DNA of 37,707 nt. Origin: Bacteroidota bacterium (GTDB lineage: Bacteria > Bacteroidota > Rhodothermia > Rhodothermales > JAHQVL01). This document shows, in pieces, positions 24,988 through 32,030 of this stretch. A program made the position numbers and the translations under genes. Position 1 is the stretch's first letter. Each line of letters opens with the position of its first letter. The notes under the pieces were generated by a model. It searched no databases. It saw nothing but the letters and a program-made list of their open reading frames with translations, and had not been told where the DNA came from. Location of the stretch: contig JBCCIM010000038.1 of the NCBI GenBank assembly GCA_039111535.1, positions 1-37,707 of the forward strand. Direction: 5' to 3'.

Positions 24988-25078
24988 AAAATGTAGACTT
25001 TTGAGTTTTTAGGTGCTATTGGAATGAGAAAAAATTGTTGGCAGACACGAATGTTGCAGTGTTAACCTTTACACCACG

Positions 25079-25450
25079 CGTCATGTCCAACTCGATTGGG
25101 CATCCACCGTCAACTATTCGCTAGTATCAGGGCTGATGTTATCGTATGCCAGTAGCGTGACTGCCTGCAGTATTGCGCACACGCCCCCAACCGTCATGCC
25201 CAACTTGATTGGGCATCCACCGTCAACTATTCGCTAGTATCAGGGCTGATGTTATCGTATGCCAGTAACGTCACTGCCTGCAGTATCGCGCGCACGCCCC
25301 CAACCGTCATGCCCAACTTGATTGGGCATCCACCGTCAACTATTCGCTAGTATCAGGGCTGATGTTATCGTATGCCAGTAACGTCACTGCCTATAGTATT
25401 GCGCACACGACCCCAACCGTCATGCCCAACTCGATTGGGCATCCACCGTC
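25079..25450 (+). repeat. 113-bp tandem repeat array with palindromic core (3.3 copies)
   Basis: Three full copies start at 25079, 25192 and 25305, each exactly 113 bp, and a fourth begins at 25418 and runs 33 bases to 25450. Each copy starts with CGTC and then ATGCCCAA-c[tc]cga/ttga-TTGGGCAT, an eight-base-arm palindrome (25083-25103, 25196-25216, 25309-25329, 25422-25442). The first copy has one mismatch in its left arm (ATGTCCAA). The other 80 bp of the unit is unique to this array. The first and fourth copies have loop CTCGA, the middle two CTTGA. The fourth copy ends where the GIY-YIG stop codon begins. Confidence 0.95.
25418..25446. repeat. Left arm of 29-bp perfect inverted repeat round GIY-YIG gene
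   Basis: These 29 bases, from CGTCATGCCC to GGGCATCCAC, are the exact reverse complement of 25814-25842. The two arms bracket the nuclease gene with a 367-bp interior. Beyond the 29 bases the sequences differ, so the boundary of the shared element is sharp. Confidence 0.92.
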
Positions 25451-25743
25451 TACCATCCGCAGATATCGACATACAAATCTTTCCACTGAGGATTCTGCTT
25501 TTCAATCAGTGCAATTTTCCATGACCTATTCCACTTTTTCAACTGCCGCTCGCGAGCGATAGCATCCAGAATGCGGTCGTAAGTTTCAAGGTATACCAGT
25601 CGGTGAAGGCTGTATCTGCAGGTGAAGCTTTTCTCCGTCATTGACCGATGTTCACCCATTCTTCTGATGATGTTATTGCTGACACCTGTGTAAAGTGTGC
25701 CGTGTCGTTTGTTGGTCAGTATGTAAACGTAACCTGTTTTCAT
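25450..25743 (-). CDS. Small GIY-YIG endonuclease, single domain
   Basis: A 97-residue single-domain GIY-YIG nuclease of the UvrC-N/URI-like type (COG2827-like). MKTGYVYILTNKRHGTLYTGVSNNIIRRMGEHR carries the motif as YVYIL...LYTGV, with the catalytic Tyr and the following Arg (NIIRRMGEH). The metal-binding Glu is in DAIARERQLKKWNR, and the domain ends WKDLYVDICGW. All expected active-site residues are present, and length is usual for the group. It has no extra DNA-binding domain, so target choice must come from the domain or a partner. It lies inside an inverted arrangement of palindromic repeat arrays; its stop codon directly adjoins one repeat, and the other array begins about 24 bases before its start. 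The start has only a weak GAG. Reaction and family are secure; function is open. Confidence 0.9.
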   Translation of the reverse strand: MKTGYVYILTNKRHGTLYTGVSNNIIRRMGEHRSMTEKSFTCRYSLHRLVYLETYDRILDAIARERQLKKWNRSWKIALIEKQNPQWKDLYVDICGW

Positions 25744-25768
25744 GATTACTCAACGATGGCAATTGGTA

Positions 25769-26055
25769 TATAGGCCTTGGTTGATAGACGTTTTTTTGGC
25801 GATTAGCATACCTGTGGATGCCCAATCGAGTTGGGCATGACGATGGGGACGCCGGGGCGCGGTAGAGTGGTGTATAGGCCTTGGTTGATAGACGTTTTTT
25901 TGGCGATTAGCATACCTGTGGATACCCAATCGAGTTGGGCATGACGATGGGGACGTTGAGGCGTGGTAGAGTGGTGTACAGGTTTTGGGTGAAAGACGTT
26001 TTTTGGCGATTAGCATACCTGTGGATGCCCAATCGAGTTGGGCATGACGGTGGGG
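25769..26055 (-). repeat. 104-bp tandem repeat array with inverted palindromic core (2.7 copies)
   Basis: Copies begin at 25769, 25873 and 25977 (period 104; the third has one T fewer in its T-run and stops early). Each holds a T-run after GACG, then GGCGATTAGCATACCTGTGG, then the palindrome ATGCCCAA-tcgag-TTGGGCAT at 25818-25838, 25922-25942 (one mismatch) and 26025-26045, then CATGACG. The loop TCGAG is the reverse complement of CTCGA in the left array, so these cores point the other way. Outside the 29-bp core the unit shares nothing visible with the 113-bp array. The array reaches to within 25 bases of the nuclease start and may hold its promoter. Confidence 0.93.
25814..25842. repeat. 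Right arm of 29-bp perfect inverted repeat round GIY-YIG gene
   Basis: From GTGGATGCCC to GGGCATGACG; exact reverse complement of 25418-25446. This is the palindrome of the 104-bp array that is nearest to the nuclease gene. Confidence 0.92.
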
Positions 26056-26158
26056 GGATGGCGGGAGAGATGCCAGATGGTGCTTGTAACGTGTGGATGC
26101 CGGCGGGGCACAAATCTTTGCCGGGTTCGTCGAACGAAAAAAAGCACATTTTGTAGCA

Positions 26159-29526: not shown

Positions 29527-29823
29527 ATGAGCGAAGCGAAATCCGCTATTGGCGGCTTGAAGTACTGGCAGTTTTTTATTCTTCTCCTTGTACTTTCTGT
29601 TGTCAGCGTCTGGTATACCTTTAACTATGCCATCGAATTCTCTGCATTTGCCGTCGCGTTTGCCAAAGTATTCATTGCGCTTTTCCTCTTTTATCTCTTC
29701 GACTTGCTGGTGCTCAAAGATATAGACACCGTCGATGAAATTATCAAACAGAAAAACCTGCCACTAAGCATTTTCTTTTTGGGATATGCGATCATTATTG
29801 CTGCCTGCGTTGCTACTGCTTAG
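29527..29823 (+). CDS. Three-TM small membrane protein, holin-like size
   Basis: A 98-residue protein with three predicted membrane helices: YWQFFILLLVLSVVSVWYTF (14-33), FSAFAVAFAKVFIALFLFYLFD (39-60) and LPLSIFFLGYAIIIAACVATA (78-98). Size and three-helix layout resemble class I holins. The stretch DEIIKQKNLPLSIFFLGYAI also recalls DUF350 proteins, which are non-phage membrane proteins. Neither assignment is proven. GGAGGT nine bases before the ATG is the best ribosome site in this region, marking it as first gene of the operon. Its end overlaps the following lipoprotein gene by 38 bp, so the two should be translationally coupled. Confidence 0.75.
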   Translation: MSEAKSAIGGLKYWQFFILLLVLSVVSVWYTFNYAIEFSAFAVAFAKVFIALFLFYLFDLLVLKDIDTVDEIIKQKNLPLSIFFLGYAIIIAACVATA

Positions 29824-30514
29824 CAGCGGGTGTACACAAGAGGAGCCAGGCTTTCATTCAGTAAATCAAGATCCGGACCTGAGTGTTGTGTCTTCATTTG
29901 CCAACCTGCCCGATGAGATTGGCGGGTTGCCAGATACACTGCACGTGGGCGCTTCTTTTCTGGAGCCGCCACCGGAGCCTCCATTGCCTCTCATGCACCT
30001 TGATTCCTCAAGGGTTTATGTTGGTGTAGTTGAGGATCCGAAAGATTCCAATCGCGGCGAAGCAGTTGAGAAATTTCTTGCGGCTGTTGGATTGAAGCCG
30101 TTTCAGGATGAAGAGGGCGAATGGAAGAGTTTCCCTTATTGCGCAGCCTTTGTGTCTTTTTGTCTGGATGAAGCCGGCGATGTGGCATTACCACTTGTCC
30201 GTTCAGCCGGCGCCCGCAAGTTTATCACGGGTAACAGCATCCGGGCAAATGAAGTGCAGCGCGGCACAGTGCCTATTGCACCCGGCACCCTGGTTATTTG
30301 GAAAGCAAAGCGCGACCCAACGGATACAAGGGGACATATCGGGCTCGTAGTTGAGTGGAATGGGCAAGAAGGCATTACTATTGAAGGCAATACCGGGCCT
30401 GGCGATGAAGGGGACCAGCGCGATGGCGGTGGTGTGTACCAGCGGAAGCGGCTTCTCAGTCCGGGCAGTGCGTTTCGCATAACAGATTTTACCCCGGTTG
30501 TGTATAAAAAATAG
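29786..30514 (+). CDS. CHAP/NlpC-P60-like lipoprotein, peptidoglycan hydrolase candidate
   Basis: A 242-residue lipoprotein (LLLLSSGC, Cys16) with a Pro-rich linker (EPPPEPPLPL, 60-69) and a CHAP-like papain-fold domain (about 90-240). SFPYCAAFVS supplies the predicted nucleophile Cys119, GHIGLVVEW the His184, and TIEGNT the third residue (Glu200 or Asn202). CHAP enzymes cleave peptidoglycan peptides or amide bonds. The domain is almost identical in its core to that of the next gene: 33 of 34 residues from SFPYC to KFIT match. It starts inside the end of the upstream membrane-protein gene. As an outer-membrane lipoprotein it should face the murein layer. The substrate bond is not known. Confidence 0.8.
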   Translation: MRSLLLPALLLLSSGCTQEEPGFHSVNQDPDLSVVSSFANLPDEIGGLPDTLHVGASFLEPPPEPPLPLMHLDSSRVYVGVVEDPKDSNRGEAVEKFLAAVGLKPFQDEEGEWKSFPYCAAFVSFCLDEAGDVALPLVRSAGARKFITGNSIRANEVQRGTVPIAPGTLVIWKAKRDPTDTRGHIGLVVEWNGQEGITIEGNTGPGDEGDQRDGGGVYQRKRLLSPGSAFRITDFTPVVYKK

Positions 30515-30604
30515 TGATAATCACTTGCTTCAATCAAACACACATAGTTGTCCAGTACGTGTTGCGGCACCTGGTTTTTGCCACGTGTTTTGCGAGGTTG
30601 TTGC

Positions 30605-31636
30605 ATGAATAGCAAATATTTACATCTCATTGCCTTGATCGTGGCTGTGTTTTTTGCCGGCATCTTCATGCGCGGTGAGCGTGCCCGTAAAAAGCAGATC
30701 AAACGCGAACTGTCTGCCATCGAGCAGCGTCAAGATGAAATCAATGCGATTGTAGCGGACATTGTGCGGGTCACAGCCGAGAAAGACAGTTTGCTAAAAT
30801 TGCAGATTGCTTTGGCCAAGGAAGAAGTCAGCAAACTGAATCGAGAAGAAGCACTGCCTCGCAACCGTATTGATTCTCTGGGCCAGGAAATTGATCGCGT
30901 AAATGCCCTGCTTGCTTCACTAGGGCAGGCCATCAACGATGTGCCCGATTTTATCATCGACGCAGATAGTATGCACGCGGTCGGGCTGGATCCAGATATT
31001 ACTGCCGCAGACTCGATTGCGTTTAATCCTATCCGCACGTTTGTTGGCCGGCCTTTGCTGGCTGTCACCCCAACGCCCGCAACTACAGCTGATGCATCCC
31101 GTGGGCCGGCTTTTCTGGGCGTTGCGCGGATGTTTGCAGAGCGAGGTGTGCAAGAAGTGCCGCCAGGGTCAAACCGCGGTCCGGATGTAGAAAAGTTTTT
31201 GGCGGCTGTAGATCTCTTTCCCTCAAAGGACCGCTTTGGCAAATGGCATAGTTTCCCATACTGCGCAGCTTTTGTATCGTATTGCCTCGATGAAGCCGGC
31301 GATGTGGCGTTGCCCCTTGTTCGTTCAGCCGGCGCCCGCAAGTTTATTACCCGGAATAGCATTGAGTCTCGTATTGTGCTGCGGGGTGGGACACGCATTG
31401 AGCCCGGTACGTTGGTCATCTGGGCGCGGAATGCACGCGACCCCCGCGATCCATCCGGACATATTGGCTTTGTAATAGACTGGGAAGGGCAGGCCGGCAC
31501 AACCGTTGAAGCCAATACCACATCGGGCAAGCAAGGCAGTCAAAGGGAGGGAGACGGGGTCTATTTTCGCAAGCGCATGCTGAGCCCAGGCAGCGCATTT
31601 CGTATTACTCATTTTACACCTGTTCGCCTGAAATAA
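30605..31636 (+). CDS. TM-anchored coiled-coil protein with C-terminal CHAP-like domain
   Basis: A 343-residue protein that joins two modules of this operon. Residues 5-22 (YLHLIALIVAVFFAGIFM) are a membrane anchor. Residues about 25-112 form a charged coiled coil (ARKKQIKRELSAIEQRQDEI and onward). A linker rich in Thr, Pro and Ala (150-168) leads to the CHAP-like domain (about 170-343) with Cys220, His286 and Glu302/Asn304. The anchor and start of the coil match the two following genes, and the catalytic domain matches the preceding gene. The upstream frame start is passed over for ATG 30605, which has GCGAGG before it. An inner-membrane-tethered murein hydrolase reaching into the periplasm is the likely reading. 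Confidence 0.8.
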   Translation: MNSKYLHLIALIVAVFFAGIFMRGERARKKQIKRELSAIEQRQDEINAIVADIVRVTAEKDSLLKLQIALAKEEVSKLNREEALPRNRIDSLGQEIDRVNALLASLGQAINDVPDFIIDADSMHAVGLDPDITAADSIAFNPIRTFVGRPLLAVTPTPATTADASRGPAFLGVARMFAERGVQEVPPGSNRGPDVEKFLAAVDLFPSKDRFGKWHSFPYCAAFVSYCLDEAGDVALPLVRSAGARKFITRNSIESRIVLRGGTRIEPGTLVIWARNARDPRDPSGHIGFVIDWEGQAGTTVEANTTSGKQGSQREGDGVYFRKRMLSPGSAFRITHFTPVRLK

Positions 31637-31637
31637 G

Positions 31638-32030
31638 ATGATCAACACCGTTGTTACTACCGCGTTGGCGCATCCTAATTATCTGAGCCTGGGTGCCCTC
31701 ATTGTGTCTGTTTTTTTTGCCGGCAGTTTTTTGCAGGGAGAACGGGTACGGAAACAGGAAGTAAAGGAGCAGCTTCGTGAAATTCAGAAGCTGGCTGACC
31801 AGTCTATGGCCAGGGTCGACCAGGTTCAAGCCACGCTGGCTGCTGAAGATGCCCGGTTAGTGGCAGAAATCAGTGAGGCCTACACAGCATTGGCCGCATT
31901 GAACGAGAAGGAGCGTGTACAACGCCTGGCGCTCGAAGAGACTGCGCGGAGAAACCAGCAGTTGGCAAACCGCCGGCAACAAAACCGGCAGCAGGTAAAC
32001 GAAAGCTCTGGCTTCATCATTGACAACTAG
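31638..32030 (+). CDS. TM-coiled-coil protein, paralogue 1
   Basis: A 130-residue protein starting one base after the previous stop. YLSLGALIVSVFFAGSFLQGERVRKQEVKEQL (15-46) aligns with the anchors of the genes on either side: Y[LI]xLxA[LM][IV]xVFF[AS]G, then GE and RK. The rest to residue 122 is a long charged helix rich in Glu, Arg, Gln and Ala, a coiled coil, ending SSGFIIDN. No catalytic domain. The topology (short N-terminal anchor, periplasmic helix) is that of inner-membrane spanins, but the same shape suits a partner that docks or regulates the CHAP enzymes. Confidence 0.75.
   Translation: MINTVVTTALAHPNYLSLGALIVSVFFAGSFLQGERVRKQEVKEQLREIQKLADQSMARVDQVQATLAAEDARLVAEISEAYTALAALNEKERVQRLALEETARRNQQLANRRQQNRQQVNESSGFIIDN

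Follow-up and report, generated by a model that had tools for sequence, protein, structure and literature searches.

A small GIY-YIG nuclease gene of a Bacteroidota bacterium lies between inverted copies of a palindromic repeat that belongs to the CGTC-tagged REP superfamily, and this pairing of gene and repeat is common to many bacterial phyla and not peculiar to the genome in which it was noticed. The stretch of DNA under analysis, referred to here as the window, comprises 37,707 nucleotides, and the genome to which it belongs is called the window genome. Taken as a whole, the locus is probably a REP cassette, i.e. a GIY-YIG gene inside inverted copies of its cognate CGTC palindrome, with nicking by the enzyme and copying by the host as the presumed mode of action. 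It is furthermore possible, although this is put forward tentatively, that a GIY-YIG nuclease and not a transposase disperses the CGTC REPs, in that it would nick a cognate pair of single-stranded hairpins, after which the host would copy the dimer with or without the gene. If true, this would represent a GIY-YIG-driven counterpart of the RAYT/REPIN system, with two enzyme clades and two repeat classes having evolved together across bacteria.

The first-pass annotation of the window had described a complete single-domain GIY-YIG open reading frame between two 29-bp arms that are exact reverse complements of each other, each of them containing a 21-bp palindrome, and closer analysis confirmed these elements: the gene is encoded on the minus strand, each palindrome consists of an 8-bp stem and a 5-nt loop, and the stop codon, which had been placed at one repeat, and the start codon, placed about 70 bases from the other arm, are located at measured distances of 3 bp (left) and 70 bp (right), respectively (Table 1). 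The arms do not, however, constitute a lone pair, as they are the innermost units of two tandem arrays, four units being present on the left and three on the right. All seven units are oriented in such a way that the CGTC tag points outward and the CCA tail toward the gene. The unit is composed of the stem ATGCCCAA (8 bp), the loop CTCGA and the tail CCA, and each arm by itself folds as DNA into this stem-loop (-8 kcal/mol, z=-4.3). Slippage at nicked hairpins would be consistent with the tandem arrays.

Table 1. Gene, repeat units and tandem arrays of the cassette, in window positions.
Feature	Position	Strand	Description
GIY-YIG nuclease gene	25450..25743	-	single-domain, 97 aa, belongs to class A of the family associated with REPs; PF01541 E=3.8e-15
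CGTC-REP unit, left array copy 1	25079..25107	+	stem differs by one base: ATGTCCAA
CGTC-REP unit, left array copy 2	25192..25220	+	
CGTC-REP unit, left array copy 3	25305..25333	+	
CGTC-REP unit, left array copy 4	25418..25446	+	left arm of the first-pass annotation; tail CCACCG ('end-1' tail)
Left tandem array	25074..25412	+	113-bp period, three full copies; the fourth unit (25418-25446) comes after
Gene 5' leader	25744..25813	-	from start codon to right arm; recurs within the right tandem array
CGTC-REP unit, right array copy 1	25814..25842	-	right arm of the first-pass annotation; tail CCACAGGTATG ('end-2' tail)
CGTC-REP unit, right array copy 2	25918..25946	-	
CGTC-REP unit, right array copy 3	26021..26049	-	
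Right tandem array	25764..26074	-	103-104-bp period; per copy one REP and part of the gene 5' leader

The residues Y7, Y18, G20, R28, H32, E65 and N84 are kept across 38 relatives of the window protein, whose AlphaFold2 model (mean pLDDT 90) has the predicted fold of a GIY-YIG domain. Foldseek returned the UPF0213 GIY-YIG protein 1zg2 as the top match of this model, followed by Slx1, and the UPF0213/YhbQ-like single-domain GIY-YIG proteins (PDB 1zg2, 1ywl) are the nearest solved structures in both sequence and fold, although identity in the structural alignment is only 26%. Among these UPF0213 and Slx1-type matches there was no solved relative with a known substrate, and weak UPF0213-type matches within the order (E 1e-5 to 1e-9) were set apart as a non-REP group. 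A phage origin of the gene was rejected (no tblastn match among 50,697 phage records), as was a defence system, for which PADLOC gave no match. Elsewhere in the window, positions 29786-31636 of the plus strand hold an adjacent pair of paralogous open reading frames with CHAP domains (PF05257), and a further open reading frame located 3' of this pair (31638-32030) resembles the N-terminal part of the second of them.

The repeat is dispersed throughout the window genome, where 30 sites match the window unit with at most three mismatches and 50 sites match the wider pattern GTCATNCC-N11-GGNATCCA, while the reversed pattern, used as a control, returned no match. Comparison of 44 variants revealed that 96.6% of cells are paired and that double changes occur in four pairs, with 70 double-changed cells versus 23 in shuffles. 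Chance or an assembly artefact was discarded as the origin of the repeats in view of hundreds of independent copies and this stem covariation, and a known RNA element was discarded since Rfam gave no match. CGTC-tagged REPs were described by Di Nocera, De Gregorio and Rocco in 2013 as repeats with a CGTC tag, an AT-initial stem of 8-9 bp, a loop of 4-5 nt and a CCA tail, which occur in five phyla, in hosts that include Bacteroidetes, Proteobacteria, Rickettsia and other groups, mainly as inverted dimers but also as heterodimers (PMC3733652). The window repeat is a member of this superfamily on every tested feature: the unpaired CGTC tag (TGTC or CCTC being allowed) is found in all seven window units and in nearly all genomic copies, the unit has the AT-initial stem, the loop and the CCA tail, with the geometry of CGTC-2 (8-bp stem, 5-nt loop), and dispersal is mostly as inverted dimers, as judged from the 50 genomic copies and from pairs counted in seven genomes. 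The 2013 survey found no association of these repeats with transposase genes, concluded that they have no dedicated transposase, and contains no occurrence of the term GIY-YIG (PMC3733652).

In seven genomes, inverted pairs within 300 bp are arranged with tags out in 24 cases versus tags in in four. The length of the gene-less dimers is constant inside a genome and different between genomes, with start spacings of 75-79 bp in the window genome, 46-47 bp in G001, 55-56 bp in G027 and 148-150 bp in G013 (seven of eight at 140-150). Their ends are sharp at CGTC and the sequences that flank them are unrelated, and at 19 dimers no target-site duplication beyond chance was found. Two tails follow ATCCA in the window genome, namely CC(C/G)G, which is the tail of the left window array, and CAGG(T/C)ATG, which is that of the right one, and three of the four short dimers in this genome join one end-1 and one end-2 tail, like the gene cassette. 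Since these dimers combine both cassette tails, a dimer resembles a cassette minus its gene, in the same way as REPINs relate to REP-RAYT loci.

The family to which the window gene belongs comprises two protein clades with two repeat classes. Class A consists of 'GTLYxGVTS'-type proteins with units ending in CCA, while class B consists of 'LYTGVTN'-type proteins with longer hairpins, GTCATCCTGAGC...GAAGGATCT and GTCATTGCGAGG...GCAATCT. A first set of 57 genes was drawn from relatives and from named plasmid and mislabelled chromosome records, the named records with family genes being those of Neisseria, Sinorhizobium, Azospirillum, Shinella, Rhizobium, Novosphingobium, Sphingobium, Aeromonas, Spirosoma and Planktothrix; three records listed as plasmids (NZ_CP119140, NZ_AP026896 and CP090106, of 2.2-4.9 Mb) are like whole chromosomes of Neisseria, Aeromonas and Sinorhizobium in length and gene content. 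In the protein tree of these 57 genes, which has few columns and many weak forks, the 41 clearly labelled genes require a single A/B change, compared to 300 shuffles that gave 13.75 changes on average and never fewer than 9. Moreover, for 20 held-out genes retrieved later, the class predicted by profile was that of the neighbouring repeat in 15 of the 15 with a unit, a count that leaves out one regex match in G072 judged to be spurious. A possible exception is the class-B gene C70 of G001, which has a class-A unit 60 bp away.

The window genome itself encodes three small GIY-YIG paralogues, and these are found beside different repeat families. The window gene (C38) adjoins GCCCAA units, whereas C48 lies between the arms of an inverted repeat from a GCCGGA family that is also scattered in this genome. 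The third, C85, is a class-B gene interrupted by an in-frame TAG next to a class-B unit with a changed (GTC-mutated) tag (L057, G000:C85:24615-24890), and the genome has about 15 dispersed class-B units; C85 is interpreted as a decaying enzyme with surviving class-B repeats. C38, C48 and C85 thus each have a repeat family of their own.

Proximity of gene and repeat was measured by comparing the density of units near the gene (within 250 bp) with that far from it (0.8-1.3 kb away). Across the 57 genes, tag-outward units of class A reach 1.38 per kb near versus 0.11 far and those of class B 1.17 versus 0.07, these densities coming from a loose hairpin detector of which the strict version misses class-B and mutated units. 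In a second, separate set, which consists of 80 named genome contig loci from many phyla retrieved by a single-protein search, class-A units amount to 2.69 per kb near versus 0.07 far, 100 units point outward versus 31 inward, and at 57 of the 80 loci one or more outward units lie no further than 250 bp from the gene. Thus, for the question raised in the first-pass annotation of whether the gene is found as often far from the repeats as near them, both gene sets returned tag-outward units that are 12- to 38-fold denser beside the gene.

The answer to a second question raised there, that of repeats in genomes without the gene, likewise favoured the proposal, with exceptions. Among 114 genomes of the order, at least two repeats are present in 15 of the 30 that carry a class-A or class-B gene versus 3 of the 84 that do not (Fisher p=4e-8, kinship uncorrected), and for class A alone the corresponding figures are 9 of 17 versus 6 of 97 (p=1e-5, kinship uncorrected). 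On the other hand, exceptions exist: G027 holds 38 class-A repeats while only a class-B gene was found in it, and 2-6 repeats are present in G007, G017 and G074, none of which has a clear gene. Many of the class-A repeats of G027 stand in tandem arrays of 2-3 units with periods of 140-225 bp (L153, L154). Several of the exception genomes are incomplete MAGs and, in G031, a CGTC repeat is found at most some 130 bases from the start or end of many contigs, which means that nuclease genes may be missed where contigs break at repeats. Conversely, in 15 of the 30 gene-bearing genomes the three search patterns found fewer than two matches, which is in part due to stem types that they do not capture, for instance CGTCGCACCAAACTTGATTTGGTGCC in genus g15. 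Based on these distributions, the single-domain GIY-YIG family is the best candidate for a consistent enzyme partner of the CGTC REPs.

Comparison of related strains provides sites at which a cassette is either present or absent. In Azospirillum lipoferum 4B the gap between sufB and sufC contains the gene with a REP dimer on either side, whereas A. oryzae, A. ramasamyi and strain B510 possess a short sufB-sufC gap without a cassette, and the remaining Azospirillum locus matches are shorter by a roughly equal amount. By parsimony, the A. lipoferum cassette is a gain, and it represents the clearest case of insertion among the sites compared. The sufB-sufC gap of Shinella sp. PSBB067 (L120), an alphaproteobacterium unrelated to A. 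lipoferum (L098:2300-3020), also holds a GIY-YIG/REP cassette, and the two have different stems and only distantly related proteins. Four lineages of Sphingobium plasmids carry a cassette between fnrL and a response-regulator gene, while at the same site TYG64 and TYG74 carry a solo palindrome, CGTCACCCCGGGTCAAGCCCGGGGTGACG, without a cassette, and TYG72 and TYG65 carry neither. This solo palindrome corresponds to the outer halves of both flanking REPs joined together, with CGTC-type ends on both sides (L115:1179-1292, L116:1097-1206), and could be either a deletion scar or a split target. Because the intergenic spacers have diverged, neither the Azospirillum nor the Sphingobium sites reveal a clean insertion point.

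We infer that the GIY-YIG protein may bind, cut and mobilise its repeats. The protein would recognise the CGTC hairpin as single-stranded DNA, as available on the lagging strand, during repair or in incoming transforming DNA, and would nick it by GIY-YIG chemistry. Such chemistry produces a nick without a covalent link between protein and DNA, and GIY-YIG nucleases are not known to have strand-transfer activity; any spread would therefore need host replication or repair, by which the freed dimer, or the dimer plus the gene, may be copied or joined into new sites. Nicking followed by host copying would account for dimers of fixed length that have sharp CGTC ends and no target-site duplications, and also for the slippage-like arrays.

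Other explanations of the same association deserve consideration. The nuclease could serve to control DNA uptake or recombination, cutting repeat-bearing single-stranded DNA and modulating natural transformation or recombination to the benefit of the host without any spreading, an explanation that is certainly conceivable even if we regard it as somewhat doubtful. The Neisseria gonorrhoeae homologue, 47% identical to the window protein, is likewise flanked by CGTC-1 (dRS3-like) repeats, and cutting at the same sites would agree with all of the association data. We take this homologue to be Ssn, whose reported function in Neisseria is such control of uptake and recombination. Alone, however, this function leaves unexplained the spread of copies, the fixed-length dimers made of both cassette ends and the present/absent cassettes. 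A preference for target sites, by which the cassette would home into pre-existing REPs in the manner of a homing endonuclease without spreading them, could be read from the two Sphingobium plasmids with a solo palindrome, given that such a picture is expected where the gene splits a solo REP; nevertheless, the solo form can also come from deletion between the 8-bp stem repeats, TYG72 and TYG65 have no REP at the site, and gene-less dimers far outnumber cassettes, and we therefore consider this explanation unlikely. As regards features of homing endonucleases, the window cassette is intergenic and no intron or intein was seen.

It might also be argued that the REPs are no more than common transcription terminators or hairpins that stabilise mRNA, placed on both sides of a small selfish gene, with no mutual action. 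The left unit, 3 bp from the stop codon, could indeed terminate transcription, REPs are frequent 3' of genes (PMC3733652), and the window has no Rfam family match, which is compatible with such passive hairpins. Yet they would be hard to reconcile with the pairing of protein clade and repeat class, with units both upstream and downstream of the gene in a fixed inward/outward polarity, and with different stems for different paralogues of one genome, all of which renders this explanation very improbable. Even less credible is mobilisation of the repeats by an unrelated transposase, either a RAYT/IS200 enzyme in trans or a DDE enzyme on a MITE, with the GIY-YIG gene as cargo. The inverted-repeat layout would be in keeping with it, and RAYTs or other transposases were considered as REP movers in the 2013 survey (PMC3733652); against it stand the absence of an association between CGTC repeats and transposase genes in that same survey, and the fact that cargo would not follow the repeat class by clade. 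The first-pass annotation had seen no transposase, which holds beyond the window: Y1_Tnp (PF01797) is absent from the whole genome, which is 97.6% complete, while the identical search for Y1 (HUH) transposases was positive in five control genomes, and a RAYT in trans is thereby rejected for the window genome. A MITE of a DDE transposon is likewise rejected, as the cassette contains no transposase and the 19 dimers show no target-site duplication beyond chance. A REP cassette with presumed nicking by the enzyme and copying by the host, as outlined above, is the explanation that we favour.

CGTC REPs are among the commonest short repeats of bacteria, including Rickettsia, Neisseria and rhizobia, and the survey that defined them in 2013 left open what makes or moves them; the present data indicate a single enzyme family in which the repeat partner depends on the clade. 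If confirmed, this would imply that REP-like elements arose with at least two unrelated enzymes, and it would provide a likely substrate, readable from their own flanks, for thousands of proteins annotated as 'GIY-YIG nuclease family protein' or 'excinuclease ABC subunit C'.

The first-pass annotation had proposed a palindrome family mobilised or maintained by a GIY-YIG endonuclease in a layout like that of RAYT/REPIN. What remains of this idea is the tie between palindrome family and GIY-YIG gene, together with the layout, whereas the arrangement is not peculiar to this genome and the repeat superfamily had already been described. As in RAYT/REPIN, an enzyme gene lies between inverted REPs with gene-less inverted dimers elsewhere, and several repeat families coexist in a genome, each with its own enzyme gene (PMC2817692, PMC3116915); the lack of target-site duplications at the dimers is a further likeness. 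The enzyme, on the other hand, is of the GIY-YIG type (PF01541) and not HUH/Y1 (PF01797), and the tag is CGTC instead of GTAG. The window system thus works like RAYT/REPIN without being a member of it, as it differs in enzyme fold and in tag. In comparison with the CGTC REPs as described in 2013, which came without an enzyme, the units here have a GIY-YIG gene between them, and a second protein clade is paired with a further repeat class whose tail is of the CT type.

On the protein side there is a likeness to Ssn, with which the window protein shares its small size, a single GIY-YIG domain with conserved catalytic residues, and both homology to the Neisseria protein and the link with its repeats. 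A 2025 study in Nature Communications is said to have described these ssDNA-specific GIY-YIG nucleases in Neisseria, with thousands of homologues that act on their own repeats, and reportedly laid stress on site-specific cleavage of single-stranded DNA and on transformation, not on gene-less REP dimers or co-varying clades. The window enzyme is most probably a member of the Ssn family or a close relative, and this family constitutes a biochemical precedent that limits novelty. Within the literature covered by the search, no article joined GIY-YIG to CGTC REPs. In conclusion, what is new here, if anything, is the link to the whole class of CGTC REPs, the pair of co-varying clades and an anatomy in which the dimer equals a gene-less cassette.
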